DNA of 64,000 nucleotides from Candidatus Desulfobacula maris (GTDB taxonomy: Bacteria > Desulfobacterota > Desulfobacteria > Desulfobacterales > Desulfobacteraceae): the NCBI GenBank assembly GCA_014383445.1, contig JACNHV010000389.1:1-64000 (forward strand). Direction: 5' to 3'. The position numbers and the translations under genes were made by a program. The notes below the pieces were generated by a model. The model was not told the DNA's origin and searched no databases. It saw only the letters and a list, made by a program, of their open reading frames with translations. Positions 27 through 19,170 of the stretch are shown piece after piece; positions within the stretch are counted from its first letter, which is position 1; each line of letters begins with the position of its first letter.

Positions 27-1829
27 ATGAAAAAAACAAAATTTATTATCCTGTTATTATTTTTGCTTGTGCTTGTCGGAATCGTTTTGATTTCCTATGC
101 ACAATTTAAAAAGGAAACTATTAAAGATTACAAGCAGATCAAGGAGAGTGGTCGAAGCCTTATCGGCATGTTGAGCCTGCCTTCCACAGCTTCTCTTTTA
201 TCCGGACCAAACGATTATTTTTTCCGGGAGCTTTCGCAAAACGCCATAAGTAATAAGATTGCCTATTGCATTATCCATGATGCCCAGAGAAAGCCTGTCC
301 TTTTATTCTCGCCTGAGAACATTGACCAGCAGGTGCCGGATATCATCATAAATAAATCTTTGTTGGAATCCGGCTTTATCATGCAGGATTTTTTAACCAC
401 GGACGGACATGAGCTCATTGAATTTGCCAAACCCGTGTTTGCTGACAAAAAAATTGCCGCTGTTGTCAGGCTTGGACTTAAAGTAGCGGACAATAATTTT
501 TTTACCTATGAAAACCTTGTTCTGCCTTTTCAGATTGCTTTTTTTATCATGCTGGCACTGGTGTTTGGTTATTATTGGACGATCCTGTCGTTTAAGCATT
601 TGAAAACCATTAAACTGGCAGATGATGGGACACCTGGAATCAAACCAGGTAAAGGCGATGTTAAAGACATCATAGAAAACCTGGAAGCCTATCTGGCCAG
701 TGTAAAGGAAAAGACAAGTGAGGCTGAAACCCAGCGGCAGCAATTGGAATCCCGTCTTAAAATCAGCCAGTTTGAAAACAAACAATTTTTCAACATTTTT
801 AATGCCTTTGATTTTGGTATCCTGCTCATTGACAACAGGGAGATGGTTTTCTTTGCCAATACATATCTTCTGAATCTTTTAGGACAAAGCGCGGAAGACC
901 TTATTAATTCTTCCTATGATGAAGTTATTGAGCATGAAGACCTTAAAACCTTTATTATGCAGCGCGGTTCTGCCGAGGGGCACCTGATTTCCAAGCATAT
1001 GAAAATAACCTTTGAAAAAACCGATCCTGGTCAGTTTTTTCAAGCCTCTTCATACAATATCACGGATGCCGAAGGATCTTTGTTTATTCGGCTTATCATG
1101 GTGGTGAATATTTCCAGGGAAAAAGAAGCTGAAAAAGCACAACAGGATTTTATCAGCCACATTGCCCACGAATTAAGAACGCCCTTGACCAATATCAAGG
1201 CCTATAATGAAATGATGATGGATGGTGAAATCAACAATGCTGAAATGCAGAAGGAATTTTTTAATACCATCAATGATGAGACAAACCGTCTGGCTAAACT
1301 GATTTCAAGTATTCTGGAGCTTGCTGAAAGTGAAATGGGTCAGCTCACGATTACAAAAGATATGGTCAAGACGGACTGGCTCATGGAGGGATGTATTGAA
1401 GCTGTGGAGGCAGTGGCCAAAGAAAAGAACATTACAATTGAAAGACAGGTCCCGGATAATTTCCCCAAAGTAATGGGGGACAAGGAGATGCTCAAATCTG
1501 CCCTTATTAATATATTGGGAAATGCAGTAAAATATTCACCAGAATCTGCAAGGATTACATTTGCCATCAAGGAAGCCGATGACATGGTTGTCTTTGAAAT
1601 CAATGATACGGGGTATGGTATGGATGAAAAGGATTTGCCCCATATTTTTGAAAAATTTTACCGGTCTGAAAATGAAGATGTCGTGGAACAGACGGGCAGC
1701 GGGCTGGGCCTTGCCATTACTGCTGAGATCATTAAAACCCATGATGGTTTTATTGAGGTCCAAAGTGAACTTGACAAAGGAAGCCAGTTCACGATAAAAA
1801 TACCAAAGGGAGATTTACTCATTGGATAA
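27..1829 (+). CDS. Membrane-bound PAS sensor histidine kinase
   Basis: N-terminal TM segment, second TM near aa 165-185, PAS-like region, HisKA motif FISHIAHELRTPLTNIKAY, HATPase motifs NILGNAVKYSP / NDTGYGM / GSGLGLAI. Confidence 0.93.
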   Translation: MKKTKFIILLLFLLVLVGIVLISYAQFKKETIKDYKQIKESGRSLIGMLSLPSTASLLSGPNDYFFRELSQNAISNKIAYCIIHDAQRKPVLLFSPENIDQQVPDIIINKSLLESGFIMQDFLTTDGHELIEFAKPVFADKKIAAVVRLGLKVADNNFFTYENLVLPFQIAFFIMLALVFGYYWTILSFKHLKTIKLADDGTPGIKPGKGDVKDIIENLEAYLASVKEKTSEAETQRQQLESRLKISQFENKQFFNIFNAFDFGILLIDNREMVFFANTYLLNLLGQSAEDLINSSYDEVIEHEDLKTFIMQRGSAEGHLISKHMKITFEKTDPGQFFQASSYNITDAEGSLFIRLIMVVNISREKEAEKAQQDFISHIAHELRTPLTNIKAYNEMMMDGEINNAEMQKEFFNTINDETNRLAKLISSILELAESEMGQLTITKDMVKTDWLMEGCIEAVEAVAKEKNITIERQVPDNFPKVMGDKEMLKSALINILGNAVKYSPESARITFAIKEADDMVVFEINDTGYGMDEKDLPHIFEKFYRSENEDVVEQTGSGLGLAITAEIIKTHDGFIEVQSELDKGSQFTIKIPKGDLLIG

Positions 1830-2205
1830 TAAAAAAACCATTCTCATTATAGACGATGATGTCCATATCCGGCGGATACTGGAAATCAAGATCAAGCACA
1901 GCGGGTATGATACCCTGACTGCAAAGAATGGAAAGCAGGGTCTGGAAATCATCCAGAATCAAAAACCCGATGCCGTGATTTCTGATTTAAACATGCCCAG
2001 GCTTGACGGCAAAGAACTTTGCATAATGACCAATCCCTTAAAAAAAGACCGCCCTTTTTTTACCATCATCATCACGGCGCGGATCAATCCCCATGAACAG
2101 AAATGGATCGATGAAATGCAGGACACCATTTTTATGGAAAAACCCTTCAGCCCGTCAAAGATAATAGAAGCCCTTGCCCAGTATTTTGAATGGACAACTT
2201 TATGA
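1822..2205 (+). CDS. Single-domain response regulator (receiver)
   Basis: ILIIDDDVHIRR...DAVISDLNMPRLDG...EKPFSP; TTG start overlapping the kinase stop. Confidence 0.9.
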   Translation: MDNKKTILIIDDDVHIRRILEIKIKHSGYDTLTAKNGKQGLEIIQNQKPDAVISDLNMPRLDGKELCIMTNPLKKDRPFFTIIITARINPHEQKWIDEMQDTIFMEKPFSPSKIIEALAQYFEWTTL

Positions 2206-2226: not shown

Positions 2227-3711
2227 ATGAAATCAACGGGTTTTGAAGAGATACTTTCCGGGTTCTCAAAAATATCACCTCTGAAGTTTGAGATCTGGAA
2301 TGAAAAGGGTGCTGTCGGAGCCTGTGATCCTGGGGACCTTAAAGGGGTAAGACAATTTTTACCCGGGATAGCGGCCCGTGTTTATGAAGCCGAAGATTTC
2401 CGGCACGAGGAGACTGAAACTCAGGACGGGCTGTTCGGCCTTCCTTTGTTTGATGACGATATCATTGCCGGCGTTCTTCTGGCTTATTTTTCCAACGCCC
2501 ATGATAATGCACAGGTAAGCTGTCCAGATCCTGAGGATGCAAAAACGCTTTTAACCCGGATTGCCGGCATGATCGAAGAAAGATGGGATATGCAAAAGGA
2601 ATCTGATACATTGATCAACGAGCTTGACAAAAGCTATGAATCCCTTCATCTGTATTCAAATGTGGCAACCCAGATAAAAACCCTTAATTTTTCAAGCCAG
2701 ATGATCCTCCATCTGCTCAATGAAATCAAAGAAAATATCAGGATGGACATGGTATTTTCCATCATGCCGGACCGGCCTGATTATTCTGAGATTGTCTGCA
2801 AAGAGGAGGTTAAGATAAAAGATGAGAAGGGATTTGTAGCATCCTTGATTAAGGCCGTTGAAAAGAGCGATAAGGCTCTTGAGGAGGGTTATTTTATTGT
2901 AAATAATTCAACGGATGAAAAATTGTTTTCAAAGATCCATAAAGACCCCTTCAGGTTTCTTGCCGTAAAAATCATGCACAATGAAAGCTTTTATGGGTGG
3001 CTTGGGATTTTCTCCTTTAGCATGGACGATATTATCAAGCGCAGCGAACTTCGCCTTCTGGTTTCCATTGCAGAACAGATCGGTGTGGTTATTGCCAATA
3101 CAGACCTGTACCATAATCTTGAAGATTTTGGCATCAATATCGTAAAATCCCTTATCGTAACCATTGAAGCCAAGGATGTTTACACGGGGGGCCATTCTGA
3201 ACGGGTGCATCATGTCAGTATGCTTATAGCCCAGGAGGCTGGAATCAGTGAGGAAGACAGGAAAGTTTTAAACTGGTCTGCCCTGCTCCATGATGTGGGT
3301 AAAATAGGCATTCCCGAAGCCATACTCAACAAGCCTGCCCGGCTGAGCGACAAAGAATATTCCATCATCAAAGGACACCCTTTAAAAGGCGCAGAAATAA
3401 TTTCGCCCCTGGATTATCTTGCAGGTTCTATTCCAGGGGTTCTCCATCACCATGAGGCCTATGACGGCACGGGTTATCCTTCCCGCATAAAAGGCCAAGA
3501 GATCCCTTTGTTTTCAAGGATCATTTCTGTTGCAGATACTTTTGACGCCATTACATCGGACCGGGCCTATAGAAAAGGCGCTTCCTTTGAAAAGGGACGT
3601 AAAATCATAAATGAAGTCTCAGGAACCCAGCTGGATCCTGAGATGGTTGCGGTTTTTAATAAGGTTTACAAGAGAGCAAGAACCTGGCTTGCAGAAGGGC
3701 AAATTAAATAA
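2227..3711 (+). CDS. HD-GYP domain protein with N-terminal GAF-like region
   Basis: GGHSERVHHVSMLIA, LLHDVGKIGIPEAILNKPARLS, HHHEAYDGTGYP. Confidence 0.92.
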   Translation: MKSTGFEEILSGFSKISPLKFEIWNEKGAVGACDPGDLKGVRQFLPGIAARVYEAEDFRHEETETQDGLFGLPLFDDDIIAGVLLAYFSNAHDNAQVSCPDPEDAKTLLTRIAGMIEERWDMQKESDTLINELDKSYESLHLYSNVATQIKTLNFSSQMILHLLNEIKENIRMDMVFSIMPDRPDYSEIVCKEEVKIKDEKGFVASLIKAVEKSDKALEEGYFIVNNSTDEKLFSKIHKDPFRFLAVKIMHNESFYGWLGIFSFSMDDIIKRSELRLLVSIAEQIGVVIANTDLYHNLEDFGINIVKSLIVTIEAKDVYTGGHSERVHHVSMLIAQEAGISEEDRKVLNWSALLHDVGKIGIPEAILNKPARLSDKEYSIIKGHPLKGAEIISPLDYLAGSIPGVLHHHEAYDGTGYPSRIKGQEIPLFSRIISVADTFDAITSDRAYRKGASFEKGRKIINEVSGTQLDPEMVAVFNKVYKRARTWLAEGQIK

Positions 3712-3712
3712 T

Positions 3713-4054
3713 ATGAGTCCCAGCGTCTCCATAAAAGATATTACCATTAAAAATATTAACGGCAAAACCGTTCTTGGCCCTGTTACCTCCCTGACCCATA
3801 AAAACTGTGAACAGCTGGAGCGGTTTTTTAAAAATCTTTTAGCCAAGGGTGTTGTGGATATTGTCATTGATATGAAATCCGTGCCCTTACTTGACAGCTG
3901 TGCCCTTGAACTTTTGGTGGAAATGCAGAAGCAGTTGAAAAAAAAAGGGCGGGACCTGATTATTTCAGATATGAATGATGTGTGCACAGACATATTGGTG
4001 TGTGTGAAATTGATCAATGAGTTCAAAGTCGTAACAACAAAGAAAGCTCGATAA
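3713..4054 (+). CDS. STAS-domain (anti-sigma factor antagonist-like) protein
   Basis: ATG at 3713 in frame with the ORF 3611..4054; VDIVIDMKSVPLLDSCALELLVEMQKQLKKKGRDLIISDMN. Confidence 0.8.
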   Translation: MSPSVSIKDITIKNINGKTVLGPVTSLTHKNCEQLERFFKNLLAKGVVDIVIDMKSVPLLDSCALELLVEMQKQLKKKGRDLIISDMNDVCTDILVCVKLINEFKVVTTKKAR

Positions 4055-5763
4055 TGAGCCCGAAAAACATGCCAAAAAGAATCAAGCTCGGGGAAATTCT
4101 GGTCCGCCAGAAAAAATTAACCCCTGGGAAACTTTTTGAACTTCTTGAAATTCAGTCCCAGACAGCCCAGAGTCTGGGGTATCTTCTTACCAAGCAGAAG
4201 ATCATCACAGATGAGGAATTGAACCATGCCCTGAGCGAACAGCTGGGCATCCCCCATATATCCCTGAGAAAAGGGATGGTTGATCCGGCAATCGTTGATA
4301 TCCTTCCAAAGGAAAAAGCCATCCAGATGAACGTGATCCCCATGTTCCGTGTGAACAATGTCCTGACGGTGGCCACCAGCGATCCCCATGATTTTTTCAA
4401 ACAGGATAAAATTGCCGAGATAACAAAGTTCCTTATCCAGCAGGTTTCCTGCTCCCGCGCTGATATCAATAAAGCCATTGAAGAATGCTATCAGGGACAG
4501 ATCAGCATTGATGATGTCATCTCCAGTGTTGACGAAGGCGAGCTTGCCTTTGTTGAAGAGAGCACGGAGGCCACGGTCAGTGAAATTGCAAAAATGGCCG
4601 AGGGAAGCCCCGTTGTAAACCTCACCAACCTGATCCTTCTCAAGGCAATTCGTAAAGCAGCCAGCGATATCCACATAGAGCCCCAGCAGGACAATTTCAT
4701 GGTAAGAGCCCGGGTAGACGGTATTCTCTATGAACTGATGACCCATGGGATGGAGCGCCATTCAGCTGTAGTGTCAAGGCTTAAGGTCATGGCAAGCCTG
4801 GATATTTCAGAGCGGCGAATGCCCCAGGACGGCAGGATCCAGGTCACGGTGGACGGCAGGCTTATAGATCTGCGGTTTTCTTCTCTGCCCGGCTATTATG
4901 GCGAAAAAGTGGTTTTAAGGATCCTGGACCGCAGTAAATCCGTACTGGATATCAACCGACTCGGGTTTGACCAGTCTTTGCTGGCCCTTTTCAAGGAACT
5001 GCTTAGAAGACCCTATGGCCTGATCATTGTCTGCGGTCCCACGGGAAGCGGCAAAACTACAACCCTGTATGCTGCCGTAAATCTTCTCAATACCATTGAA
5101 AAAAATATCGTTACCATTGAAGACCCCGTTGAATATCAGATCAGCGGCATCACCCAGGTTCCCGTGAAATCAGCCATAGGCCTCACCTTTGCCAGAATTT
5201 TAAGGCATGTCCTGCGCCAGGACCCGGATATTGTTCTTGTGGGAGAGATCCGGGACAGGGAAACGGCTAAAATTGCCATTGAGGCATCATTGACTGGCTG
5301 CCTTGTTCTTTCCACCCTGCATACCAATGACAGTCCCAGTACCATTACCCGGCTCCTTGAAATGGGGATAGAACCCTATTTGATTTCATCTTCCCTGCTG
5401 GCTTCAATCGGCCAGCGTCTGGCAAGGTCCATCTGCCCGAGCTGCAAGACTGATTTTTTCCCGCCCAAAGAAGTGATCCAGGCTCTGGGCTTTGATGAAA
5501 ATAAAAATCTTAAACTTATCCGGGGAAGGGGATGCACTTCGTGTTTTGACTCAGGATTCAAGGGCCGTATCGGTATCCACGAGATGCTGGTTAATGAACC
5601 AGGGCTTCAAAAGCTTATCTTAAGCAATCCAACCATTGACAGGCTCAAGGAATATCTTGATAAAAAAGGTTTTATAACCATGCAGCAGGACGGGTATAAA
5701 AAAGTTCTTGCAGGAGATACCACAATTGAAGAGGTGCAAATGCTGACCGTGGGGGAAGAGTAA
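4054..5763 (+). CDS. gspE: GspE/PilB-type secretion/assembly ATPase
   Basis: MshEN-like N-terminus, Walker A GPTGSGKTTTLYA, IEDPVEYQI, GEIRDRETAKIAIEASLTG, C-terminal CPSC...CTSC. Confidence 0.96.
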   Translation: MSPKNMPKRIKLGEILVRQKKLTPGKLFELLEIQSQTAQSLGYLLTKQKIITDEELNHALSEQLGIPHISLRKGMVDPAIVDILPKEKAIQMNVIPMFRVNNVLTVATSDPHDFFKQDKIAEITKFLIQQVSCSRADINKAIEECYQGQISIDDVISSVDEGELAFVEESTEATVSEIAKMAEGSPVVNLTNLILLKAIRKAASDIHIEPQQDNFMVRARVDGILYELMTHGMERHSAVVSRLKVMASLDISERRMPQDGRIQVTVDGRLIDLRFSSLPGYYGEKVVLRILDRSKSVLDINRLGFDQSLLALFKELLRRPYGLIIVCGPTGSGKTTTLYAAVNLLNTIEKNIVTIEDPVEYQISGITQVPVKSAIGLTFARILRHVLRQDPDIVLVGEIRDRETAKIAIEASLTGCLVLSTLHTNDSPSTITRLLEMGIEPYLISSSLLASIGQRLARSICPSCKTDFFPPKEVIQALGFDENKNLKLIRGRGCTSCFDSGFKGRIGIHEMLVNEPGLQKLILSNPTIDRLKEYLDKKGFITMQQDGYKKVLAGDTTIEEVQMLTVGEE

Positions 5764-5766: not shown

Positions 5767-6879
5767 ATGCCTATCACCATTCAATCCAAAGCCAGACCCG
5801 GTATTCAAAAGGGGAAGAAAAAGTCTTTCAGCTTCAGCAGTGGTTCAGTAAAACAAAAGGAACTGTTTTTTTTCCTGACCCAGCTGTCCCTGATGGTAGA
5901 GGTTGGCATTTCACTGAGCCGCGCCATTGAAACCATTCGAGTCCAGACAACCAATGATTATTTTAAAAAGATTCTGGAAGCAATGGTAAAGGATATTGAG
6001 GAAGGCCATCAGCTGTCTGCTGCAATGAGCCGTCATCCCAAGGTGTTTAAAAGTGTTTATGTCAACATGATACGGTCAGGAGAGACGGGCGGGTTTTTAC
6101 CCAGGGTAATTGACAGCATCATTGAAATGCTGGAAAAACAGCAGGCCATCCGATCCCGTCTTCGAGGCGCAATGGCCTATCCCATGGTTCTCTGCGGTCT
6201 GGCCTTTGTAGTAACCCTTTTTGTCCTCATTGGCATTCTGCCCAAATTCATGGTGTTTTTTGAAGGCAAATATCATATCCTGCCGCCCACAACAAGGATT
6301 ATGATGGGTTTAAGTGTTTTTCTGCGGTCCTATTGGTGGGGTTGTATCCTGGGTGCTGTAGGTCTTGTGGCAGGGATCAGGGTTTATCTGTCATCAAAAG
6401 CCTTTGCCCTTCACAGGGACTGGCTTGCCATTCATGTTAAACTGTTTTCAAAATTGTCCAATAATATTTATACGGGGTTTTTTCTGCGAACCCTGGGGAC
6501 CATGCTGGAGAACGGTATCCCTCTGGCAGATGCTATTTCCATTGCCGGCAATACCATTGAAAATACCTATTATAAAGCATATGTGGAAAATATCCGTACC
6601 ATTATTGAAGAAGGCGGTCATTTTTCAAAGGGGTTTGCCTTAAATAAAAATATCCATGAATCTGTAAAGCAGATGATCACCGTGGGAGAGGATGTGGGAA
6701 AACTGCCTGAGGTCATGCTCAAGTTATCCAAAGTATATGAAAGCGAAACAGAAGAGAGCCTGAATCAGATAGCTTCCTTGATTGAACCCATTGCCCTGGT
6801 CTTCATGGGAATTGTTGTTTTTATTATTGTATCCTCCATTATTCTTCCCATGTTCCGCCTTGCCGGGGCCATGAAATGA
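5767..6879 (+). CDS. gspF: GspF/PilC-type inner membrane platform protein
   Basis: FFLTQLSLMVEVGISLSRAIE, MIRSGETGGFLPRVIDSI, VGEDVGKLPEVMLKLSKVYE; three hydrophobic segments. Confidence 0.95.
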   Translation: MPITIQSKARPGIQKGKKKSFSFSSGSVKQKELFFFLTQLSLMVEVGISLSRAIETIRVQTTNDYFKKILEAMVKDIEEGHQLSAAMSRHPKVFKSVYVNMIRSGETGGFLPRVIDSIIEMLEKQQAIRSRLRGAMAYPMVLCGLAFVVTLFVLIGILPKFMVFFEGKYHILPPTTRIMMGLSVFLRSYWWGCILGAVGLVAGIRVYLSSKAFALHRDWLAIHVKLFSKLSNNIYTGFFLRTLGTMLENGIPLADAISIAGNTIENTYYKAYVENIRTIIEEGGHFSKGFALNKNIHESVKQMITVGEDVGKLPEVMLKLSKVYESETEESLNQIASLIEPIALVFMGIVVFIIVSSIILPMFRLAGAMK

Positions 6880-6982: not shown

Positions 6983-7552
6983 ATGGAGGAGCACGTGATC
7001 AATCAAAAAAAAGATCGAAAAACAAAGTTCGGAAATCATGGATTCACATTGATTGAAATTTTGATTGTGGTTATGGTACTGGGTATTTTAGCCATGGTAA
7101 TTGTGCCTCAGATTACTGTTTCCACGCAGGATGCAAAGGTGAGTACTTTGCAGACGAACCTGAGTGCAATGAGAAATGCAATTGAATTATATGCTGTCCA
7201 GCATAACGGTGCCTATCCAGGGCTCTACGATGGAGTAACTGCAGGGGCCACCCCGACTTTATCTATAGCTGGTAATGTTGTCGCTGCTTTTACTAATCAG
7301 TTAACACAATACACAGACATTAATGGTATTTTTGCTGTAACTAAAGACAGTACCTACAAATTTGGTCCTTATCTCAAAGGCGCAGCACTGCCGACTAATC
7401 CTTTTACTGACTCGGCAACGGTTGCTTGCGATATTGCTATAGACGTTATTACAACAAAAGCATTAACTGTTCCAGCCACCGCTTGGAAATTTTATGTTAT
7501 CACTGGAATTTTAATCGCTAATGACGGCGGTACCGGTCATATAGATCTTTAA
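6983..7552 (+). CDS. Major pseudopilin/prepilin (GspG-like)
   Basis: NHGFTLIEILIVVMVLGILAMVIVPQ class III prepilin signal. Confidence 0.9.
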   Translation: MEEHVINQKKDRKTKFGNHGFTLIEILIVVMVLGILAMVIVPQITVSTQDAKVSTLQTNLSAMRNAIELYAVQHNGAYPGLYDGVTAGATPTLSIAGNVVAAFTNQLTQYTDINGIFAVTKDSTYKFGPYLKGAALPTNPFTDSATVACDIAIDVITTKALTVPATAWKFYVITGILIANDGGTGHIDL

Positions 7553-7569: not shown

Positions 7570-8124
7570 ATGGCTGGGAGTTCAATAAAAAAGAATGGAT
7601 TTACCCTTATTGAACTCCTCGTAATTGTCATGATCCTTGGTATTTTGCTCATGGCGGGCGTACCAGCTTTAACTTCCGTCATGGCAGACAGCAAACTTTC
7701 ATCAGCCGGCACGATCATGGTCAGTGCTATTGAATACACGGCCAGCCTCAGCATCAAATATAAGCGGCCCTTCCAGTTTGAGGCTGATGTAAACAACAAT
7801 TTTTTTCAAATCAAGGACACAGCCCCATACCCTGATCCGGATCCGGATCCGGGTGATCCTTCTGAAACCATCCGGTTGAATAACCTGCCCCCCGTCAATG
7901 GCGATGATATTGTTTTTAATCCTCTGGCAGGCACCTGGTATATTGTGGATTTTGATACAACGGGCAATTTTGACGGGGTTTCCATTGATTCCGGCCCGGC
8001 AGCTTTAAAATTTTTTCCGGACGGCCATTCCGCCTATACTGACAGTCAATATGTCTTAAGTCTTGGGGAACTTTCAAATACCATTACCATCAACGGAATC
8101 ACGGGGAGGATAACGGTTGATTAA
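7570..8124 (+). CDS. Pseudopilin (GspH-like)
   Basis: KKNGFTLIELLVIVMILGILLMAGVPAL prepilin signal. Confidence 0.85.
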   Translation: MAGSSIKKNGFTLIELLVIVMILGILLMAGVPALTSVMADSKLSSAGTIMVSAIEYTASLSIKYKRPFQFEADVNNNFFQIKDTAPYPDPDPDPGDPSETIRLNNLPPVNGDDIVFNPLAGTWYIVDFDTTGNFDGVSIDSGPAALKFFPDGHSAYTDSQYVLSLGELSNTITINGITGRITVD

Positions 8125-8518
8125 ATTGTCTTCATCCGGGTTTACCCTGTTTGAAATTATCGTGGCTATGTTTGTTATTTCCATTGCCGTCATTCCCATG
8201 ATGCAAAGCTTTGGCCCGACCATGATGACAGCAGGTGCCGTGGAAAAAACAGCTGTTCTGACAAATCAGGCCAGGGCAACCATGGAGCGCCTGCTGGCCC
8301 TAGATTTTGACACTTTGAAGTTAAAACTCGCTGAAGTCCAGCCCCTTTCCGGCAATGCTGTTTTTGGCGATTCAGATGAAACCTTTACTTTTGAAGCTGG
8401 CACTTATTCTCCTGCAATAACCATAAGTGATGCATCTGGGGATGCCAGTAAAACCCTTCTGGATCTGACTGTCAGCCTTGCAGGCATGAACTTTTCCACA
8501 AGAAAGGCAGACTATTGA
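8117..8518 (+). CDS. Pseudopilin (GspI-like)
   Basis: SSGFTLFEIIVAMFVISIAVIPM; TTG start overlapping the upstream stop. Confidence 0.82.
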   Translation: MIKLSSSGFTLFEIIVAMFVISIAVIPMMQSFGPTMMTAGAVEKTAVLTNQARATMERLLALDFDTLKLKLAEVQPLSGNAVFGDSDETFTFEAGTYSPAITISDASGDASKTLLDLTVSLAGMNFSTRKADY

Positions 8519-9168
8519 AGCCCCTTAAAAATAAAAAAGGATTTACCCTTTTTGAGCTCATCCTGGCAGTGGCTGTTCTGGGGCTGATCATGACATCCTT
8601 TCAAGGGATTCTGGGACAATCTCTTTCCACCCATAAGGATACCCAGGAAAAACTGGAACAGGTTTCCCAGGCAAGATTTGCCATGGACCGCATTGCCATG
8701 CTGATCAGGGAAACAGGTCTTATAAATATTCCTGTAGCAAAACTAACACTTGAATCCAGTGCCTCCTCCCTTGAGATTGAGGAGCGGATCATGAATTTTT
8801 ATAATAATTCTACTCACAGCTTTGTCCTGGCCGGGGATGCATATCTGGATGCAGATAATAACTATAATTATATTATCAATGATAATGTTACAACTGATCC
8901 CGTTGACTGGATCATCATCAGCCTGGATACAACGGATCCGGACAACACAAAACTTGTTGAACGACTGCCGGACTACAGCACGGCTGCTTTTGCCGATAAA
9001 ATGCCCGAAAGGATCCTGTGTGAAAACATAACTAAGTTTGAAGTTACCCGGGGCAGTGTTGATGAAAAACTTCATCATCTGATTAAAATTGAACTTGCTC
9101 TTGGCAGCGGAATCAATCAAATATCCTTTACAACAAGGGCCATTGCAGGAAAATTGCTTATATTATGA
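8515..9168 (+). CDS. Pseudopilin (GspJ-like)
   Basis: KKGFTLFELILAVAVLGLIMTSFQGIL; overlapping start. Confidence 0.82.
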   Translation: MKPLKNKKGFTLFELILAVAVLGLIMTSFQGILGQSLSTHKDTQEKLEQVSQARFAMDRIAMLIRETGLINIPVAKLTLESSASSLEIEERIMNFYNNSTHSFVLAGDAYLDADNNYNYIINDNVTTDPVDWIIISLDTTDPDNTKLVERLPDYSTAAFADKMPERILCENITKFEVTRGSVDEKLHHLIKIELALGSGINQISFTTRAIAGKLLIL

Positions 9169-10280
9169 TGCTGACAAAAAAATATCCTATTGCCTTTGAT
9201 ATCGGGTTCCATGATATCCATGCCCTCCAGCTTGGAAAAAGCCGGGACAGATTCAGTATACAATCCATGTTTCATCAAAAACTGGAAAAGGATTTGACGG
9301 ATATCAGACAAAGCAGCCCGGATTTGATTGAAGCTTTGAAAATCATAAAAAAACAGGGCCGGTTTAAAGGCAACAGGGCCGTTATCCATATCCCGGCTCA
9401 CAAGGTGTTTTCATTTCCCATTGAATTTGTATTAAACAAAGATGAAACAATGGAGGAAGCCATCATTCGGGAGGTTGAGCAGAACCTTCCCTATCCCCTG
9501 GAAGAGGCCGTGATTGATTATCCTTCAATGACAAGCTCAATCCCTAAAAAGCCTCAAAAAGTGATTATTGTTTCCGTTCATAGAAGCGATGTTGAAGAAA
9601 TTCTCATGGTATTTAAAAAAGCTGGCTTCAGGCCGGATGCCCTGGATTTCAGGCCTATTTCCTCCATACGCCTTCATCAATATCTTGCCCGGGTTTCTTC
9701 TGACGATCCTTCTGTTATCTGTTATGTGGGCAGAGAAGAGTCCAGTGTTCAGATTTTCAATAACGACCGGATCCTGGCAATGAATAAATTTCCCTGGGGG
9801 CTTGGCAGGGTTATCGAGAAATTGAATGTCAATCTAGGGTTCAAGGAAACAACGGACAATGCTCAGGTTCTGCTGAAGCAGCACGGCATCAGGTTAAACG
9901 CTTCTGGAAAAACAATAAAGGCTGCCCAGCCCCCAGATGATTCCACTGATGATCCCCCTGACTCCAATATCGGTCCCATTGTTTCCAGGATCATTACCCC
10001 TACCATTGAAGAACTGGTATTTGAGTTTCATAAAATCCTTGGGTATATCCGGAATAAAGAGGGGATTCACAAGATCAATGATATCTCTTTTTATGGTGCT
10101 GCATCCATGATTACAGGCCTTGATCACTATATTGAAAACCGTATGAATATCCCTGCAAAAACCATCAACATCCTGGATCATATTGATATTAAACCGGATC
10201 TTGTGGCAGAGGGTTTTAATGACATCACGCCCTTTGCTGCAGCCCTGGGTCTTGCCATGAGGGAGATTTCATGGCTCTAA
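9165..10280 (+). CDS. pilM: PilM/GspL-type actin-fold assembly protein
   Basis: PIAFDIGFHDIHALQLGK..., AIIREVEQNLPYPLEEAVIDYP; position in pilus operon. Confidence 0.82.
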   Translation: MMLTKKYPIAFDIGFHDIHALQLGKSRDRFSIQSMFHQKLEKDLTDIRQSSPDLIEALKIIKKQGRFKGNRAVIHIPAHKVFSFPIEFVLNKDETMEEAIIREVEQNLPYPLEEAVIDYPSMTSSIPKKPQKVIIVSVHRSDVEEILMVFKKAGFRPDALDFRPISSIRLHQYLARVSSDDPSVICYVGREESSVQIFNNDRILAMNKFPWGLGRVIEKLNVNLGFKETTDNAQVLLKQHGIRLNASGKTIKAAQPPDDSTDDPPDSNIGPIVSRIITPTIEELVFEFHKILGYIRNKEGIHKINDISFYGAASMITGLDHYIENRMNIPAKTINILDHIDIKPDLVAEGFNDITPFAAALGLAMREISWL

Positions 10281-10867
10281 GACAGATCAACATGATTCCG
10301 GGAAATATTCTGGCAAGAACAGACCTTGCCAGGCATTTATGGTTCTGGGGCAAAGGCCTTGTGTTTATCCTGCTTGTATTTGTGATGTTTTATCTTGCCC
10401 AGGCCAGCAGATTTGCTTTGCAGCAAAAAGCCCAGCATTCTGATGCTTCCATAAAGATGATAGTAACAAACAAAATTGACCAGGCCTTAAGAAAGGCAGA
10501 TGGTATCAATAAGCAGATGCAGGATCTTAATCTGAAAAGCGGAGTTCTTGCCACCTTGACAAACCAGCAGCTTTATTATGACATTCTTGCTGCTTTTGCC
10601 CATGCCTTTAATGATGCCACATGGATTGATCATCTTTCCATCCAGAGGGGAAATGAGAAAGATATGGACAGGTCAAATCTTTTTGTTGATGGATTTTCCC
10701 TGACTCACAATACCCTGGGCGCTTTTCTGGAATCTCTTTCAGGCAATAACAGGATCCAGGATGTGGTGCTGGTTTATGCAAAAAAACAGGAATCCCTGGA
10801 CCAGGATGTTGAAAGTCTTATCCAATTTAAACTGACCTGCTCCATCATAAAGGGACCCTTAAAATGA
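10271..10867 (+). CDS. PilN-like assembly protein
   Basis: ALRQINMIPGN N-terminus followed by one TM, PilN-type architecture and position. Confidence 0.7.
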   Translation: MALRQINMIPGNILARTDLARHLWFWGKGLVFILLVFVMFYLAQASRFALQQKAQHSDASIKMIVTNKIDQALRKADGINKQMQDLNLKSGVLATLTNQQLYYDILAAFAHAFNDATWIDHLSIQRGNEKDMDRSNLFVDGFSLTHNTLGAFLESLSGNNRIQDVVLVYAKKQESLDQDVESLIQFKLTCSIIKGPLK

Positions 10868-11391
10868 ACCTTAATATGAGAGCCGTGGATATGGCCTGTA
10901 TTCTTCTTCTGGTGGTGGCTGTGGCAGCCGGAGGATTTTTTCTTCAACAAAACTTTTCACATCATTCATCCCATGTAAAACTTGAAAAAGAGGAATTATC
11001 AACTCAGGAAAACAGCCTGAACCTTGCTGTTGAAAAACTTGCAAAGCTTGAGTCACAATTCAAGGAACAGGAAGACAGGGTCCTTGAACTGAACAAAAGG
11101 GTTCCAAAAGCCCCGGGGATGGGTGACCTTTTAAGCCAGGTCCATGGCCTGGTAAAACAAAGAAATATAAACCTCATTGATTTTAATCACAAACCTGCCC
11201 AGGGGTTTGAACGCTACAAACTTATCCCCGTTCAGGTTATTGTGAAGGGTGACTTTTTAAATATTTACAGGTTGATCCATGATCTGGAAACCTTGAACCG
11301 GGTTTTGATTTTTGAAAAAATCATGATCAAAAAACAGGATGGAAAAAACCTGTGCCAGGCAACTTTTATGGCCAGTGTATTTCAGCAGTGA
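10864..11391 (+). CDS. PilO/GspM-like assembly protein
   Basis: N-terminal TM, coiled coil, FERYKLIPVQVIVKGDFLNIYRLIHDLETLNR typical of PilO. Confidence 0.75.
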   Translation: MNLNMRAVDMACILLLVVAVAAGGFFLQQNFSHHSSHVKLEKEELSTQENSLNLAVEKLAKLESQFKEQEDRVLELNKRVPKAPGMGDLLSQVHGLVKQRNINLIDFNHKPAQGFERYKLIPVQVIVKGDFLNIYRLIHDLETLNRVLIFEKIMIKKQDGKNLCQATFMASVFQQ

Positions 11392-11418: not shown

Positions 11419-12015
11419 ATGAAAGATAAGAATAAGACCATAAAAACCATTGCTCTGGTATTGATAGCCATTATTTTCCTTTCTATGTTTTACAATACTT
11501 TTTTTAAGGCAAAAAAAAATTCCGGGAAGGCTGCATTAAAAAAACAACCCACAAAGGTGGTGGGCACTATCCAGCCTCAAAGGACGGCACCAACGCAGGC
11601 AGAGACTGTCACTATTCCCGTTTCAGGGTCTGATCCTGCCGGAAATACTGCCTTTTCTGTCCAGCCTTTTAAATCAATCATTCCCAATATATTTGAACCG
11701 CCTGACAGCGTTAAATTCGTTCCAAAAAAGGAAAAGGAGGAACCAAAACCCATAGCTGATGCCGTAAAAAGCCTTGTCAAAAAAATAGTGGAACCTTCGC
11801 CCCTGTCTGACCAGGAAAAAGAAAGTATCAGCCAGGATTTTCAATTTACAGGATCTATCCTCAGCAGCAAAGGCGCTGTCGCCATCATCAATGATGAATT
11901 CATCCATGTGGGGGACATTGTCAATGGATATAAAGTCGCATCCATTTCCGAACAGCAGGTCTTCATCGACACGGGACGCGGCACGATAATACTGGAGATT
12001 ATGACGTATGAATAA
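11419..12015 (+). CDS. PilP/GspC-like protein
   Basis: Single TM, low-complexity linker, C-terminal GAVAIINDEFIHVGDIVNGYKVASISEQQVFI (HR/PDZ-adjacent-like). Confidence 0.65.
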   Translation: MKDKNKTIKTIALVLIAIIFLSMFYNTFFKAKKNSGKAALKKQPTKVVGTIQPQRTAPTQAETVTIPVSGSDPAGNTAFSVQPFKSIIPNIFEPPDSVKFVPKKEKEEPKPIADAVKSLVKKIVEPSPLSDQEKESISQDFQFTGSILSSKGAVAIINDEFIHVGDIVNGYKVASISEQQVFIDTGRGTIILEIMTYE

Positions 12016-13327
12016 AAAAGTATTTTCATCCCTTTTTTTTGTTTTACTGGTTATCGTCTTTACTGGCACGGCCTTTGCCAAAGAAAAAGCACCTGGACCG
12101 GGCCAGCAGATAAAACCGTTAAATGAACAGCTGATTACGCTGAATTACCGGGATATGGATATAAGACATGCGTTTTCCGCCCTTGCCATGGAATTTAAAC
12201 TCAATATTGTCATGAGCCGCGATATCCAGGGCACCATTACCCTGCATCTGTTCGGGCTTACCCTTGAAGATGCCATGTCCACAATTGCCATGGCCGGAGG
12301 GTTTGACTATAAAAAAACTGAAGACCTGTATTATATTTACAAGGCAACGGAAAAAGAAAAAACCCCTGTGCCCGTACCCGTTGAAACATTTATGAAGGTA
12401 TTTCATGCCAGCTTTGTTGATGTTACCACTGCAAAAACAACCCTGGATGCCGTTCCAGGCTTAAATCCAGTAGAGGTCCATGCGTCCACCAAAACCATTG
12501 TTGTCAATGATACCCTGGATAATATACAAAAAGTTGAAAAGGTCCTGTCCTTTCTGGATGCTGTTCCCAAACAGGTCTTGATTGAAGCAAAAATTCTCAA
12601 GGTGACCCTGAATGATGATATGAAATTTGGCGTGGACTGGAAAGCCATCATGACGGACGGCATTATCCAGACCAGCGGACTGAGCACTGCTGTGCTGCCC
12701 GGCACAACCTCAGGTACTGAGTTTATCACCGGCCCAAGTACATCTCCGGCATCAGGGACGGGCGGCTTTGCCAATTTTGTTGCCGGTATGGGAAGCACAA
12801 GCCAGATTGCCATGGCCATTGATTTATTAAAAACCAAAGTAAAGGTGGATATCGTGGCCACCCCTAAAATCCTTGCCATTCACGGGGAAAAGGCAAAGGT
12901 CCAGGTGGGAGGTAAGTTTGGGTATAATGTCACAACGACCATTGATGGGATCACCTCTGGAAGCGTTGAATTTATCGATACCGGAACCATCCTTGAAATT
13001 ACGCCCTATATTGATGAACAAAACAATATATTACTCAATGTAAAGCCTGAAATAAACTCTGCTGGTCTTGTTTCCGGAACTCCTGTGGTCGTATCCACGG
13101 CTGTTGCCACATCGCTTTTGACAAAGGATGGAGAAACAGTTTTTCTTGCAGGATTGATAGAAACTACGGATACAAAGACAAAACATGGCATCCCCATCCT
13201 GGGTGATCTTCCAATCCTGAGTTACTTGTTCAGCAGGACAGAGGATACTAAAGAAAAAAAAGAACTGGTGATTCTGATCACAGCAAAAATCATCCAAAAC
13301 AATCTGCTGCCTTCTCAAAAACCATAG
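12008..13327 (+). CDS. Secretin (GspD/PilQ/MshL-type)
   Basis: Signal peptide, short N-domain, C-terminal secretin ATPKILAIHGEKAKVQVGGKFGY...GTILEITPYID...GIPILGDLPILSYLFSR. Confidence 0.93.
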   Translation: MNKKVFSSLFFVLLVIVFTGTAFAKEKAPGPGQQIKPLNEQLITLNYRDMDIRHAFSALAMEFKLNIVMSRDIQGTITLHLFGLTLEDAMSTIAMAGGFDYKKTEDLYYIYKATEKEKTPVPVPVETFMKVFHASFVDVTTAKTTLDAVPGLNPVEVHASTKTIVVNDTLDNIQKVEKVLSFLDAVPKQVLIEAKILKVTLNDDMKFGVDWKAIMTDGIIQTSGLSTAVLPGTTSGTEFITGPSTSPASGTGGFANFVAGMGSTSQIAMAIDLLKTKVKVDIVATPKILAIHGEKAKVQVGGKFGYNVTTTIDGITSGSVEFIDTGTILEITPYIDEQNNILLNVKPEINSAGLVSGTPVVVSTAVATSLLTKDGETVFLAGLIETTDTKTKHGIPILGDLPILSYLFSRTEDTKEKKELVILITAKIIQNNLLPSQKP

Positions 13328-13339: not shown

Positions 13340-15916
13340 GTGATGCTTAAGAACCAGAAAGGCTTTCTCCTCATCAGTATCATTTTTATCATGCTGCTGA
13401 TGGCCGTCAGCATATTTTCCATCAATTATTATTCCGTCACCCAGATTCGGATGGCTTCCAACCAGATCGATTCGGTCCAGACGGGCTATGATTTTAATGC
13501 CATTGTCGAAACATCCCTCTGGGAATTGACAGACAATCTTTTCTGGCGCACGGTTGAAGCCGGGGTAGACACGGCTTTTAACGGCACCACCTACACCCGC
13601 ATTGTCCGCAATGCAAACCTGTCTCCCTTCAATTATCCTTCCGATTATGACGATGCCGTCACCATTCAGGTGACTCCCAAAGGCTCGGACCAATCCTTTC
13701 AAAAATCTTTCAGATATTATGCCAGAGTATTTGTAGGCGCTGACACTGACCTGGACGAACCCATGGGTATGTTCATGGATTCTTCAGGTAATATTTATAT
13801 CGCAGGTACCAAGGGCCACATAATCTGGAAAATAGATACATTCTGGGACATAACACAGTTTGCCGGTACAGGCAGTTCCGGGTTTTCAGGAGACGGGGGG
13901 CCGGCAGCCAGTGCCGAGTTAAGTGAACCCAATGGTGTTTTTGGAGATTCTTCAGGTAATATTTATATCGCAGATACGAATAATCACAGAATCCGGAAGG
14001 TGGATACCTTTGGGAACATATCAACCTTTGCCGGCACAGGTAATAGTAATTATTCTGGAGACGGGGCAGAAGCAATTCTTGCCGAGCTCAATCAACCCAG
14101 GGGTATTTATGTGGATTCTTCAGATAATATTTATATCGCAGATACAAAAAATCACATAATCCGTAAGGTGGATGGTACAACCAATATCATTACAAAGTTT
14201 GCCGGCACAGCAGGGTCTTCCGGGTCTTCCGGTGACGGGGGGCCGGCAGTCAATGCCCGGCTCAATGAACCCAGGGGTATTTATAAGGATTCTTCAGATA
14301 ATATTTATATCGCAGATACAAAAAATCACATAATCCGTAAGGTGGATGGTACAACCAATATCATTACAAAGTTTGCCGGCACAGCAGGGTCTTCCGGGTC
14401 TTCCGGTGACGGGGGGCCGGCAGTCAATGCCCGGCTCAATGAACCCAGGGGTATTTATAAGGATTCTTCAGATAATATTTATATCGCAGATACAAAAAAT
14501 CACATAATCCGTAAGGTGGATGGTACAACCAATATCATTACAAAGTTTGCCGGCACAGCAGGGTCTTCCGGGTCTTCCGGTGACGGGGGGCCTGCAGTCA
14601 ATTCCCAGCTCAATGAACCCAGGGGTATTTATGTGGATTCTTCAGATGATCTTTATATCGCAGATGCAAAGAATCACATAATCCGTAAGGTGGATGGTAC
14701 AACCAGTATCATTACAAAGTTTGCCGGCACAGCAGGGGCTGCAGGTTATTCCGGTGACGGAGGGCTGGCAGTCAATGCCCAGCTCAATGAACCTTGTGGT
14801 ATTACGGCTTCTTCAGGTAATCTTTATATCGCAGATACAAAGAATCACAGAATCCGGAGGGTGGATACAACAGGGAACATAATAACGGTTGTCAGCACAG
14901 GCAGTTCCGGGTTTTCAGGAGACGGGGGGCCGGCTCTCCTTGCCCGTCTCAATGTACCCAAGGGCATTTTTATGGATTCTTGGGGTAATCTTTATATTGC
15001 AGACAGGGGTAATCATAAAATCCGGAGGGTGGATACATCCGGGAACATAACAACTGTTGCCGGCACGGGCAGTTCCGGGGATTCAGGAGACGGGGGGCTG
15101 GCAACTCTTGCCCAGCTTGACGAACCCCGCCGTATTTTTGTGGATTCCTCAGATAATCTTTATATCGCAGATACGAGGAATCACAGAATCCGGAAGGTGG
15201 ATGCCTCGGGGATCATAACAACGGTTGCCGGCACAGGCAGTTCAGGGTTTTCAGGAGACGGGGGGCTGGCAACTCTTGCCCAGCTTGACGAACCCCATGG
15301 TGTTTTTGTAGATTCTTCAGGCAATATTTATATAGCAGATAGAAAGAATCACAGAATCCGGAAGGTGGATGGTGCAACGGGGATCATAACAACAGTTTCC
15401 GGCAGGCCGGGTTCGGGGTTTTCTGGGGACGGGGGGCTGGCAACCGATGCCAAGCACAATCAACCCCGTGGTATTTTTAAGGATTCTTCAGGTAATCTTT
15501 ATATCGCAGATACAGATAATCACAGAATCCGTAAGGTGGATGCTGCAACGCAGATCATAACAACGGTTGCCGGCACTGGGAATTCCTGGGGGCCTCTCGG
15601 AGATGGTGGCCTGGCAACCAGTGCCAGAATTAAAGAACCTGTAGAAATTTTTTTGGATCACAATTATAATATCTTTATAGCAGACCGGGACGACAGGAGG
15701 ATCAGGGTGGTCAATGCAATAGACGGTAAGATTTATACCCTTGCCGGCACGGGTGCTTCCGGAGACACGACAGATCAACCGGCAGTCCTTTCGAGATTTC
15801 AAGATCCGGCCGGGATCACAATGGCATCCGGCTATGGGGGAAGCAGGATCTACATCAGTGACACGGGAAATCATAAAATTAAAGTTCTTTTACTCAAGAC
15901 TGTTTACGGGCTTTAA
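13340..15916 (+). CDS. Prepilin-like N-terminus fused to NHL-repeat beta-propeller region
   Basis: NQKGFLLISIIFIMLLMAVSIFSINYYS (PilX/GspK-type N-terminus) then many copies of NIYIADTxNHxIRKVD...FAGTGxSGxSGDGG. Confidence 0.85.
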   Translation: MMLKNQKGFLLISIIFIMLLMAVSIFSINYYSVTQIRMASNQIDSVQTGYDFNAIVETSLWELTDNLFWRTVEAGVDTAFNGTTYTRIVRNANLSPFNYPSDYDDAVTIQVTPKGSDQSFQKSFRYYARVFVGADTDLDEPMGMFMDSSGNIYIAGTKGHIIWKIDTFWDITQFAGTGSSGFSGDGGPAASAELSEPNGVFGDSSGNIYIADTNNHRIRKVDTFGNISTFAGTGNSNYSGDGAEAILAELNQPRGIYVDSSDNIYIADTKNHIIRKVDGTTNIITKFAGTAGSSGSSGDGGPAVNARLNEPRGIYKDSSDNIYIADTKNHIIRKVDGTTNIITKFAGTAGSSGSSGDGGPAVNARLNEPRGIYKDSSDNIYIADTKNHIIRKVDGTTNIITKFAGTAGSSGSSGDGGPAVNSQLNEPRGIYVDSSDDLYIADAKNHIIRKVDGTTSIITKFAGTAGAAGYSGDGGLAVNAQLNEPCGITASSGNLYIADTKNHRIRRVDTTGNIITVVSTGSSGFSGDGGPALLARLNVPKGIFMDSWGNLYIADRGNHKIRRVDTSGNITTVAGTGSSGDSGDGGLATLAQLDEPRRIFVDSSDNLYIADTRNHRIRKVDASGIITTVAGTGSSGFSGDGGLATLAQLDEPHGVFVDSSGNIYIADRKNHRIRKVDGATGIITTVSGRPGSGFSGDGGLATDAKHNQPRGIFKDSSGNLYIADTDNHRIRKVDAATQIITTVAGTGNSWGPLGDGGLATSARIKEPVEIFLDHNYNIFIADRDDRRIRVVNAIDGKIYTLAGTGASGDTTDQPAVLSRFQDPAGITMASGYGGSRIYISDTGNHKIKVLLLKTVYGL
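14095..14616 (+). repeat. 174-bp tandem repeat, three near-identical copies inside the NHL gene
   Basis: The phrase gccggcacagcagggtcttccgggtcttccggtgacgggggg recurs at 14201, 14375 and 14549 (174-bp steps). Confidence 0.95.
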
Positions 15917-15995: not shown

Positions 15996-16081
15996 AAATT
16001 ATTTTACCACAAAGCGATCAAAATTGTCAGACATATGGCTGATGAATTTGGTCGTTTTTTTTGGATGATCAGGCATTCCGT
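15996..16081 (-). repeat. Partial copy A of the apbE 3' end
   Basis: Near-identical to 19247-19330; reverse complement still reads ...KKTTKFISHMSDNFDRFVVK*. Confidence 0.92.
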
Positions 16082-16100
16082 TTGACATATAATTTTCATA

Positions 16101-16148
16101 CCAGTCGTTGCAATGGACTCGCTGAAGCTCGCCGGTTGAACTTAGGGG
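16101..16148. other. Possible attC-like recombination site (tentative)
   Basis: CCAGTCGTTGCAATGGACTCGCTGAAGCTCGCCGGTTGAACTTAGGGG; GTT(G)CAA pairs with TTGAAC leaving one extrahelical G. Confidence 0.3.
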
Positions 16149-16198
16149 AAGAAATAATCAAGTTGCTATTGCTCACATATTGGTGTACGATTGTCACT

Positions 16199-16381
16199 AT
16201 GAAACGGAATAAACTTGAGAACGAGTTAAAAAAGCTGGGTTGGTGGTTTCTGAGACATGGTGGTAACCATGATATTTGGACCGATGGAGACAGGAAGGAA
16301 CCAATCCCTAGACACAGCGAAATCAATGAAAAGCTTGCTCGTTCAATAATACGTAAGGCAAAAAGAGGAGGCCAATCATGA
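16199..16381 (+). CDS. hicA: HicA-family toxin
   Basis: ELKKLGWWFLRHGGNHDIWTDGDRKEPIPRHSEINEKLARSIIRKA. Confidence 0.9.
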   Translation: MKRNKLENELKKLGWWFLRHGGNHDIWTDGDRKEPIPRHSEINEKLARSIIRKAKRGGQS

Positions 16382-16809
16382 GATTTTCAGGTAAAATATA
16401 TAAAGACGGCAAATTCTGGCTGGCAGAAATTCCGATTCTCGATTTAATGACCCAAGGTCGAACAAAGAAAGAAGCGTACGAAATGGTTGCTGATATGCTT
16501 GAGTCTTTGGTTAATAAAGATGGATTTAAAATTGAGGTTTATAAAGGGGAAAAGGACAGTTTTGAAGTTGGTTCTTTAGGGCCAAAACATATGGTAAGTT
16601 TACTTTTGCAGCGAAAACGTGAAATGAGTGGACTTTCACTTGCTCAGGTTGCAAGTCGATTAGGTATGAAATCACGCAACACATACGCTCGCTACGAAAA
16701 AGGGAATTCTGTTCCAAGCGTTGAAAAACTTAATGAGTTACTAAATGCAGTTTGCCCACAGACTGATATAGTCATTAATGAAAGCACGATTCCCCTAACA
16801 AATGTATAA
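16378..16809 (+). CDS. hicB: HicB-family antitoxin with C-terminal HTH
   Basis: GKIYKDGKFWLAEIPILDLMTQGRTKKEAYEMVADMLESLV plus XRE HTH LAQVASRLGMKSRNTYARYEKG; overlaps hicA. Confidence 0.9.
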   Translation: MRFSGKIYKDGKFWLAEIPILDLMTQGRTKKEAYEMVADMLESLVNKDGFKIEVYKGEKDSFEVGSLGPKHMVSLLLQRKREMSGLSLAQVASRLGMKSRNTYARYEKGNSVPSVEKLNELLNAVCPQTDIVINESTIPLTNV

Positions 16810-16858
16810 ATCGGACTGCATATCGCCTCTGCAGACTGAAAGTTAAGTGATCTTGGAC

Positions 16859-16939
16859 CGAGCCCATGATTCATTCCTTTGGTATGCTGCTTCTAAGTTC
16901 GACCGTTCAGGGGGTTTTCGAAAAAAGGCTTATTAAAAT
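16859..16939. repeat. ~80-bp repeat R, copy 1
   Basis: GAGCCCATGATTCATTCCTTTGGTATGCTGCTTCTAAGTTCGACCGTTCAGGGGGTTTTCGAAAAAAGGCTTATTAAAAT; second copy at 19171. Confidence 0.93.
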
Positions 16940-16990
16940 GAAACAGGATTTTCATCGCTTAATAAATAAATCAAAGCTCTTTTCCTATCA

Positions 16991-17026
16991 TTTGCAGAAA
17001 ATGCCAATACTGGCATTTTCTGCAAA
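16991..17026. repeat. Perfect palindrome, 16-bp arms, 4-nt centre
   Basis: TTTGCAGAAAATGCCA-ATAC-TGGCATTTTCTGCAAA. Confidence 0.95.
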
Positions 17027-17086
17027 TAGCAGAAGACCTTTGACTAGGAAAGACTGACAATCCATTAACCCAAAATCGTGTCTCAG

Positions 17087-17125
17087 AACTTATCGGAAAT
17101 GCAAATTTTACAATATCGATAAGTT
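17087..17125. repeat. Imperfect palindrome, same family as copy 1 (copy 3)
   Basis: AACTTATCGgaaatgcaaattttacaatatCGATAAGTT followed by GTTTCTCC. Confidence 0.85.
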
Positions 17126-17234
17126 GTTTCTCCCATGGCCATGAGCAGTTCAATAAAAGTAGAAGAAAAAATTGACAAATTGAATAAAATTGAATATATT
17201 TTAGGCAATTAATATTCACAGTGAGGGAAATATT

Positions 17235-17471
17235 ATGAAAACATTAACAATGAGAGTTGATGATTCAATTTATCAGATAATTAAGGCTGCTGCAGATGGT
17301 CAAAAAAGAAATATTTCCAATTTTATCGAATTTGCCACGCTGCAATATCTAACCTCGGTGCAGTATGTTGATAATAGTGAGATGAATGAGATATTGAATG
17401 ATAAGGAATTGGTTGAAAATCTTCAAGAGGGTTTGAAAAACTTGAAAAATGAAGAATATTCAATTGTCTAA
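17235..17471 (+). CDS. Ribbon-helix-helix-type antitoxin
   Basis: MKTLTMRVDDSIYQIIKAAADGQKRNISNFIEFATLQYL; overlaps a RelE/ParE-type toxin ORF. Confidence 0.75.
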   Translation: MKTLTMRVDDSIYQIIKAAADGQKRNISNFIEFATLQYLTSVQYVDNSEMNEILNDKELVENLQEGLKNLKNEEYSIV

Positions 17472-17733
17472 TTTCCAGATTGCAGAAACTAAAACCTTTG
17501 AAAAAGTCAAAAAAAATATTGATTCACAGCTTTATACAAAAATCAGAAACATTGTTTATCCCCAATTGAAGCTAAATCCATATTTTGGGACAAATATTAA
17601 AAAGCTTAAAGGGGATTTTGAAGGATATTATCGATATCGAGTTGGAAGTTATCGATTGTTCTATTTGATAGATAATGAAAAAGTGATCGTTGTTATTGTA
17701 GATTTGAAGCATCGACAGAGTGCTTACGAATGA
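17449..17733 (+). CDS. RelE/ParE-superfamily toxin
   Basis: IKKLKGDFEGYYRYRVGSYRLFYLIDNEKVIVVIVDLKHRQSAY. Confidence 0.88.
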   Translation: MKNIQLSNFQIAETKTFEKVKKNIDSQLYTKIRNIVYPQLKLNPYFGTNIKKLKGDFEGYYRYRVGSYRLFYLIDNEKVIVVIVDLKHRQSAYE

Positions 17734-17772
17734 AATTGTCGGAAATGCCAATATTGGCAATATCGACACTTT
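17733..17772. repeat. Imperfect palindrome, TGCCAATATTGGCA family (copy 4)
   Basis: AAATTGTCGgaaaTGCCAATATTGGCAatatCGACACTTT followed by GCTCTCC. Confidence 0.9.
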
Positions 17773-17862
17773 GCTCTCCAGTTGGCAGCCGGTATTTTTT
17801 TCGTGCTTGACGATTGTTCTTGATGTGTGTATATTGGGAACAATAAAACAGGGAGGGTTATC

Positions 17863-18120
17863 ATGTCTAAAGCACGCTTAAATATCAGCCTTGACCAGGA
17901 TTTAGTAGATTTTGTCAAGGTATATGTTCGAGAAAATCGAACAACAGTCGCTGATGTCATTACGCAATTTGTCCTCACATTAAAACGGCATGCGCAAGGA
18001 GAGAGTATGGAGATCATACTCTCGGATCCTGATTTTCACAAAGCGATACTCAATGTAAAGTCCACGCTCAGCGATGGCACGGCCAAATGGCATACCTTTG
18101 AGGAAGTTTTTGACGACTGA
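17863..18120 (+). CDS. Small RHH-like antitoxin
   Basis: MSKARLNISLDQDLVDFVKVYVRENRTTVADVITQFVLTLKR; RBS gggagg upstream; abuts toxin gene. Confidence 0.7.
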   Translation: MSKARLNISLDQDLVDFVKVYVRENRTTVADVITQFVLTLKRHAQGESMEIILSDPDFHKAILNVKSTLSDGTAKWHTFEEVFDD

Positions 18121-18434
18121 TGAAAGCAAAATTTGAAAAAGCATTTCTGACAGGCGTTCGGAAACATGCCGGCATAAAGAAGCAGATTGAGCAGAAAGTT
18201 CGCCAGATTATGGAGCACCCAGTTGAACTTGGAGAACCTTTGAAGGGCAACTTGCGAGAGTTTTACTCCTGCCCGGTCAAGCGTAATTTCATCATAATCT
18301 ACTTGTATTGTACTGCATGCCGAAAAAAGGGAGATGCTGAATTTGTTGGCTGTTTCGATTGTTTAACAACCTCTGATGAAACTATTAAATTTGTACTATT
18401 GGGACCACATGATGAAGCATACAACATTAAATAA
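18120..18434 (+). CDS. RelE/YafQ-like toxin
   Basis: LGEPLKGNLREFYSCPVKRNFIIIYLY...DETIKFVLLGPHDEAY. Confidence 0.78.
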   Translation: MKAKFEKAFLTGVRKHAGIKKQIEQKVRQIMEHPVELGEPLKGNLREFYSCPVKRNFIIIYLYCTACRKKGDAEFVGCFDCLTTSDETIKFVLLGPHDEAYNIK

Positions 18435-18439
18435 ATAAT

Positions 18440-19131: not shown

Positions 19132-19170
19132 GCCATAACCAATCAGTCGAGTGGGTATCCTCCAAGAGCT

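Follow-up and report, generated by a model that had tools for sequence, protein, structure and literature searches.

The terminal gene of a filament operon in Candidatus Desulfobacula maris (Desulfobacterota) encodes a K-type (GspK/PilX-type) minor pilin with a C-terminal head of NHL blades, an identification that is well supported by its prepilin leader, the absence of Glu5, its slot in related operons and its predicted pilin fold. This modular protein probably caps a type IV filament and shows a propeller adhesin or receptor at the tip. The window, that is, the whole stretch of 64,000 nucleotides analysed (contig JACNHV010000389.1), carries the operon genes in the order histidine kinase, response regulator, HD-GYP, STAS, E, F, G, H, I, J, PilM, PilN, PilO, P, secretin and K (Table 1).

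Table 1. Features of the operon and of its terminal K gene, with positions in the window
Feature	Position	Strand	Length, basis or remark
PAS histidine kinase	27..1829	+	
Response regulator receiver	1822..2205	+	
GAF-HD-GYP-type protein (HHEAYDGTGYP)	2227..3711	+	candidate c-di-GMP hydrolase
STAS-domain protein	3611..4054	+	
Assembly ATPase E with N-terminal MshEN domain	4054..5763	+	
Inner-membrane platform F	5767..6879	+	
Major pilin G, has Glu5	6983..7552	+	
Minor pilin H, has Glu5	7570..8124	+	
Minor pilin I, has Glu5	8117..8518	+	
Minor pilin J, has Glu5	8515..9168	+	
PilM	9165..10280	+	Pfam
PilN	10271..10867	+	Pfam
PilO	10864..11391	+	Pfam
PilP/GspC-like periplasmic protein (P)	11419..12015	+	position, operon homology; no Pfam match
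Short secretin (D/PilQ-like)	12008..13327	+	439 aa
NHL-bearing K-type minor pilin	13340..15916	+	858 aa; ORF list, Pfam, AlphaFold2
Class III prepilin leader MMLKNQKG	13340..13363	+	predicted prepilin peptidase cut after G8
Pilin module, residues 9-131	13364..13732	+	long helix to residue 65 and four strands; AlphaFold2, GspK profile match
NHL region, 13 blades	13748..15913	+	probably two propellers (7+6), split near residues 521-535; Pfam, AlphaFold2, repeat model
Adjacent 174-base blade copies (two)	14139..14486	+	174/174 identical

The K reading frame opens 12 bases after the secretin stop, with GTG or with ATG at 13343, and closes the tight operon. The encoded N-terminus reads MMLKNQKG followed by FLLISIIFIMLLMAVSIFSINYYS, giving a predicted mature start of FLLIS with Ser at +5 and no Glu5. 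Relatives from three genomes share the start MM..NQKGFLLIS, and the start of the window protein is supported because they begin at the same place. The class III leader without Glu5 noted in the preliminary description was confirmed (MLKNQKG/FLLIS, Ser at +5). No match of the window protein to Pfam T2SSK, PilX_N or N_methyl was obtained, and one prepilin peptidase was found in the host genome. Among the K proteins, the residue at +5 is G, S, V, T, M, W or P, with Glu or Asp in 0 of the 20 readable leaders (L103 was omitted from the count, its called ORF starting too late for a leader), in contrast to the other pilins of the operon, among which G has Glu in 18 of 18 cases, I has one of the two acids throughout, and most H and J proteins do so too.

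A small but complete pilin domain of about 120 residues separates the leader from the NHL part. AlphaFold2 modelled the full protein (mean pLDDT 78) with a helix at residues 6-65, four strands at 76-131 and four-stranded blades from 141 to the end, and the first 133 residues modelled with 13 relatives (mean pLDDT 80) showed the same helix and four strands. The profile of this module found homologues in other genomes at E = 1e-33 to 1e-52, with NHL blades after each of them unless the contig ended first; hence the leader-pilin-NHL arrangement is not due to chance. The most probable PDB folds returned by Foldseek for the module were the minor pseudopilins EpsI (E 0.58) and XcpV (E 1.8), which are not significant, and the pilin profile, run against PDB sequences, retrieved a Geobacter pilin alone (E 0.34). 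Compared with a canonical GspK profile, the pilin part matched over its first 90 residues with 92.9% probability, above the 59.5% obtained with the operon's own I family, both being one-to-one values rather than database E-values and the GspK set being small and drawn from the same bacteria. This match, the GspK slot in relatives and the predicted pilin fold bear out the earlier proposal of a minor pilin that lacks Glu5 and carries an NHL head. Weak matches to PilX_N (PF14341) were seen in 7 of 13 family members (best E 0.0016), none above the gathering score. Assignment to GspK proper (T2SSK, PF03934) was rejected, as the protein has no Pfam T2SSK match and no inserted alpha-domain; nor does it resemble PilY1 in its domains, having no PF05567 and possessing a prepilin leader.

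An early search of related genomes recovered the pilin part with the same operon end in three genomes of the same genus and more distantly elsewhere. The pilin-part profile (A1, A3), searched in 342 genomes of the order, in the family and outside the order sample, gave 11 strong matches among the 342 order genomes, further matches in the family and four outside the order sample. The combination of a prepilin motif with NHL repeats noted in the window thereby proved to recur: 19 NHL-bearing K copies, the window included, were found in Desulfobacterota, nearly all within the same operon. K stands directly after J in ten relatives (L059, L070, L071, L100, L102, L106, L140, L156, L157 and L158), after the secretin in 6 of the 19 copies (the window and five relatives) and beside I/H in two (L069 and L105). 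One copy (L101) is alone on a short contig, the K-less remainder of the operon lying elsewhere in the same genome (L185), and at another match (L159) the contig ends before any blades. A secretin profile (A6) located the system in 18 of the 342 order genomes, all above 625 bits, and the NHL-K genomes of the order sample fall among these 18 without exception (11 of 11).

The head had been described as an 800-residue NHL propeller. The protein is indeed dominated by NHL sequence (Pfam NHL, E = 3e-73; TEN_NHL, E = 5.5e-78), but the NHL part amounts to about 720 residues (137-858) with 13 blades in more than one propeller, and the pilin domain at 9-131 had been left undescribed. A repeat model built from the window's own blades counted 13 in the window and 12, about 11, 6 or 5 in complete relatives, counts that fit six-bladed NHL propellers occurring once or twice per protein. 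The 13 blades probably form two propellers of seven and six, a division suggested by the fall of AlphaFold2 confidence at 521-535, and a single 13-bladed propeller was rejected in view of relatives with 6 or 12 blades and the break of the model near these residues. Next to the identical blade pair listed in Table 1 lies a copy sharing 167 of 174 positions, and the thirteenth blade is explained by a recent tandem duplication, with the reservation that exact repeats can be misassembled in a draft genome of 400 contigs.

The head also changes faster than its carrier. Measured against the closest relative (L042), the window proteins showed identities of 94.8% for PilM, 91.9% for PilN, 89.7% for PilO, 83.1% for P, 87.9% for the secretin and 85.1% for the K pilin module, compared with 62.0% for the NHL part, which is also about 62% identical to two more distant relatives. 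For blades 1-11 of the window, similarity to other blades within their own protein equals or exceeds that to any blade of L042, with a few near-ties, and position is kept by the last two blades alone (69 and 75% against L042). Judged from the sequences, this pattern is a signature of duplication and homogenisation with the closing blades fixed, and it is because blades turn over in this way that the propellers of the closest pair are just 62% identical against 83-95% for the machinery.

The K slot was readable in four secretin-marked systems without NHL-K, the other three meeting contig ends or leaving the slot unseen. It holds a bare 133-residue pilin in G314 (L180, 4344-4745), ending where relatives bear the head, a protein with a PKD domain in G313 (L107, 1174 aa) and in G158 (L183, 1264 aa), and a DUF7483 protein in G059 (L108, 468 aa). 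Since the slot is occupied elsewhere by a bare pilin or by PKD or DUF7483 proteins, the pilin module is a carrier that receives different heads or none. The window protein can accordingly be described as a modular pilin, with a pilin module joined to a module that is not T4P-specific and with the bare counterpart in L180. Apart from this, the 1264-residue PKD protein (L183:11075-14866) contains repeated WDGT-like motifs and may represent another propeller type, and the J pilin of L180 (4748-5635, 295 aa) contains Asp-rich repeats of calcium-binding-like type (DDDGNGAIDEEFDNGDDDEDG...).

As to the machine, which had been left as a pilus or pseudopilus, the assembly proteins, with PilM/N/O and PilB/PilQ-like components, resemble those of a type IV pilus more than those of a T2SS pseudopilus. 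The ATPase E scored 497 bits against PilB structures and 382 against those of GspE, a comparison weakened by truncation of the latter; for the secretin the scores were 112 bits against PilQ and 96 against GspD. The NCBIfam cut-offs for GspE, GspF, GspG and GspD were reached by none of the operon proteins (major pilin G against TIGR01710, 53.9 bits, cut-off 88.85), and scores with the curated PilB (578.8 against 675.65), PilQ (199.5 against 284.35) and MshL (150.1 against 250.2) models also fell short. The operon includes no retraction ATPase (PilT). Elsewhere the genome encodes a PilM-Q type locus (L110), an ordinary T2SS complete with a 271-residue GspK (L111) and an MSHA-like locus (L112). 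With these present and all scores below the curated cut-offs, the operon in the window is a separate filament system of the host, one that the PMC6668835 scheme may have placed in its generic category. MshEN models match the ATPase E, in which the two motif arginines of PMC5013675 read Lys and Ser and two turn glycines read Lys. The presence of HD-GYP and MshEN in one operon suggests a link to c-di-GMP as a lead only, binding being uncertain with these motif residues altered. Downstream of K, the region 16061-21257 of the window contains pairs of small ORFs resembling toxin-antitoxin or mobile accessory genes (HicA/HicB-like, RelE-like and PIN-like by eye).

In the proposed mechanism, the shared prepilin peptidase would cut K after Gly8, and the long K helix, still within the inner membrane, would dock on I and J (and H). 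Lacking Glu5, K would take the top, capping position, and both this absence and the size of the head point to its presentation at the filament tip. The tip complex would start assembly, after which E and the PilM/N/O platform would push the G filament through the short secretin, the NHL propellers being the first part out of the cell as an exposed head. This head may act as a binding module, either an adhesin or a surface receptor, such that one polypeptide would take the roles of PilX and a separate PilY1. Filament assembly begins with the tip complex, whose cap is a subunit without Glu5 (PMC10191384), and modular pilins show grafted binding heads (PMC8179133); on these two grounds a tip-capping K with a binding head is the most likely reading.

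The same minor pilin might instead work in a T2SS-like machine, with the propellers staying periplasmic at the tip of a pseudopilus as a cargo receptor or plunger. Such an arrangement would suit the pilin set G-H-I-J-K with its GspG-like major pilin, the GspK slot taken by K and the lack of PilT in the operon, which would permit a short pseudopilus, yet it is unlikely, given that the inner platform is PilM/N/O, that the secretin is nearer PilQ than GspD and the ATPase nearer PilB than GspE (the latter weakly so, for the truncated GspE structures), and that an ordinary T2SS with a GspK of its own exists in the same genome (L111). Blade turnover and head exchange, moreover, are more readily expected of a binding head exposed at the surface than of a conserved dock for cargo. 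The variation of internal blades, where a catalytic site would stay constant, and the swapping of NHL heads for PKD and DUF7483 modules also make it quite improbable that the NHL region is an enzyme or electron-transfer partner at the filament rather than a binding head; in Desulfovibrio ferrophilus, cytochrome genes of the outer surface do have NHL proteins as neighbours (PMC9769857), but no such gene was noticed in the ORFs that were read around K.

Fainter still is the chance that the N-terminus of K is an ordinary signal anchor and that the gene merely adjoins the operon. The failure of the window leader to match the curated N_methyl model would agree with an anchor, whereas the conserved KG/F-type site, the four-strand pilin module, the occupation of the K slot in ten relatives, a residue at +5 unlike that of the other pilins, the nesting of NHL-K inside secretin-bearing genomes and the bare-pilin version in L180 all speak against it, and a plain anchor was rejected on gene slot, pilin module and Glu5 pattern. 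Extending the preferred reading of K as a tip-capping pilin with a binding head, it can be tentatively proposed, as a possibility somewhat short of probable, that the system is an unnamed class of Desulfobacterota type IV filament in which K serves as an interchangeable tool holder, with heads swapped (single or double NHL, PKD, DUF7483 or none), blades duplicated and homogenised fast, and the tip receptor diversifying by repeat recombination.

Several known systems share single traits with this protein. In Streptococcus sanguinis, the modular pilins PilB and PilC (PMC8179133) likewise combine a small pilin module with a C-terminal binding-type module and a proposed tip location, but NHL propellers are unmentioned in the main text of that work. 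Inclusion in the survey described there depended on the IPR012902 leader motif; the window protein has no match to this motif, and K-type modular pilins without Glu5 could therefore escape such a survey. GspK of the T2SS (PMC6211770, citing Korotkov and Hol 2008) also lacks Glu5, follows J and is the largest minor pilin; its alpha-domain, however, is inserted in the pilin sheet, whereas the window K has an uninterrupted pilin module and a C-terminal propeller pair. In the PilY1/PilC adhesin with PilX (PMC7541494, PMC13190605), a large beta-propeller protein is placed at the tip through K-type minor pilins, but there the propeller (seven-bladed, PF05567) belongs to PilY1, a protein of its own that is not a pilin, while the propeller here is NHL-type and fused to the pilin. 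The blades are closest to TEN_NHL, and the teneurin structure 9ifo was the best structural match; unlike teneurins, K has no YD shell or other teneurin domains. The same genome also encodes a 2406-residue teneurin-like protein (L073:5874-13094, G000 contig C107) with TEN_NHL, YD shell, teneurin TTR-like and FN-plug domains. Its NHL part shares about 51-53% identity with the window propellers; as a second NHL pilin it was rejected for its teneurin-like nature.

Precedents exist separately for modular pilins, for K-type tip pilins and for propeller adhesins at the tip. Searches of the open-licence literature for NHL proteins connected with prepilins, pseudopilins, pilins or type IV pili gave no description of such a protein, and a K pilin fused to NHL propellers, limited to this Desulfobacterota system, with exchangeable heads and rapid change, was not found in the literature searched. 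Standard prepilin-motif surveys can miss K-type modular pilins of this kind. The series of bare K, one propeller, two propellers and other heads offers a ready comparison of tip modules against filament binding. The type IVa tip consists of K-type minor pilins and a separate PilY1, and the single gene described here appears to join both roles, a joining that would support K plus propeller as a functional tip unit.
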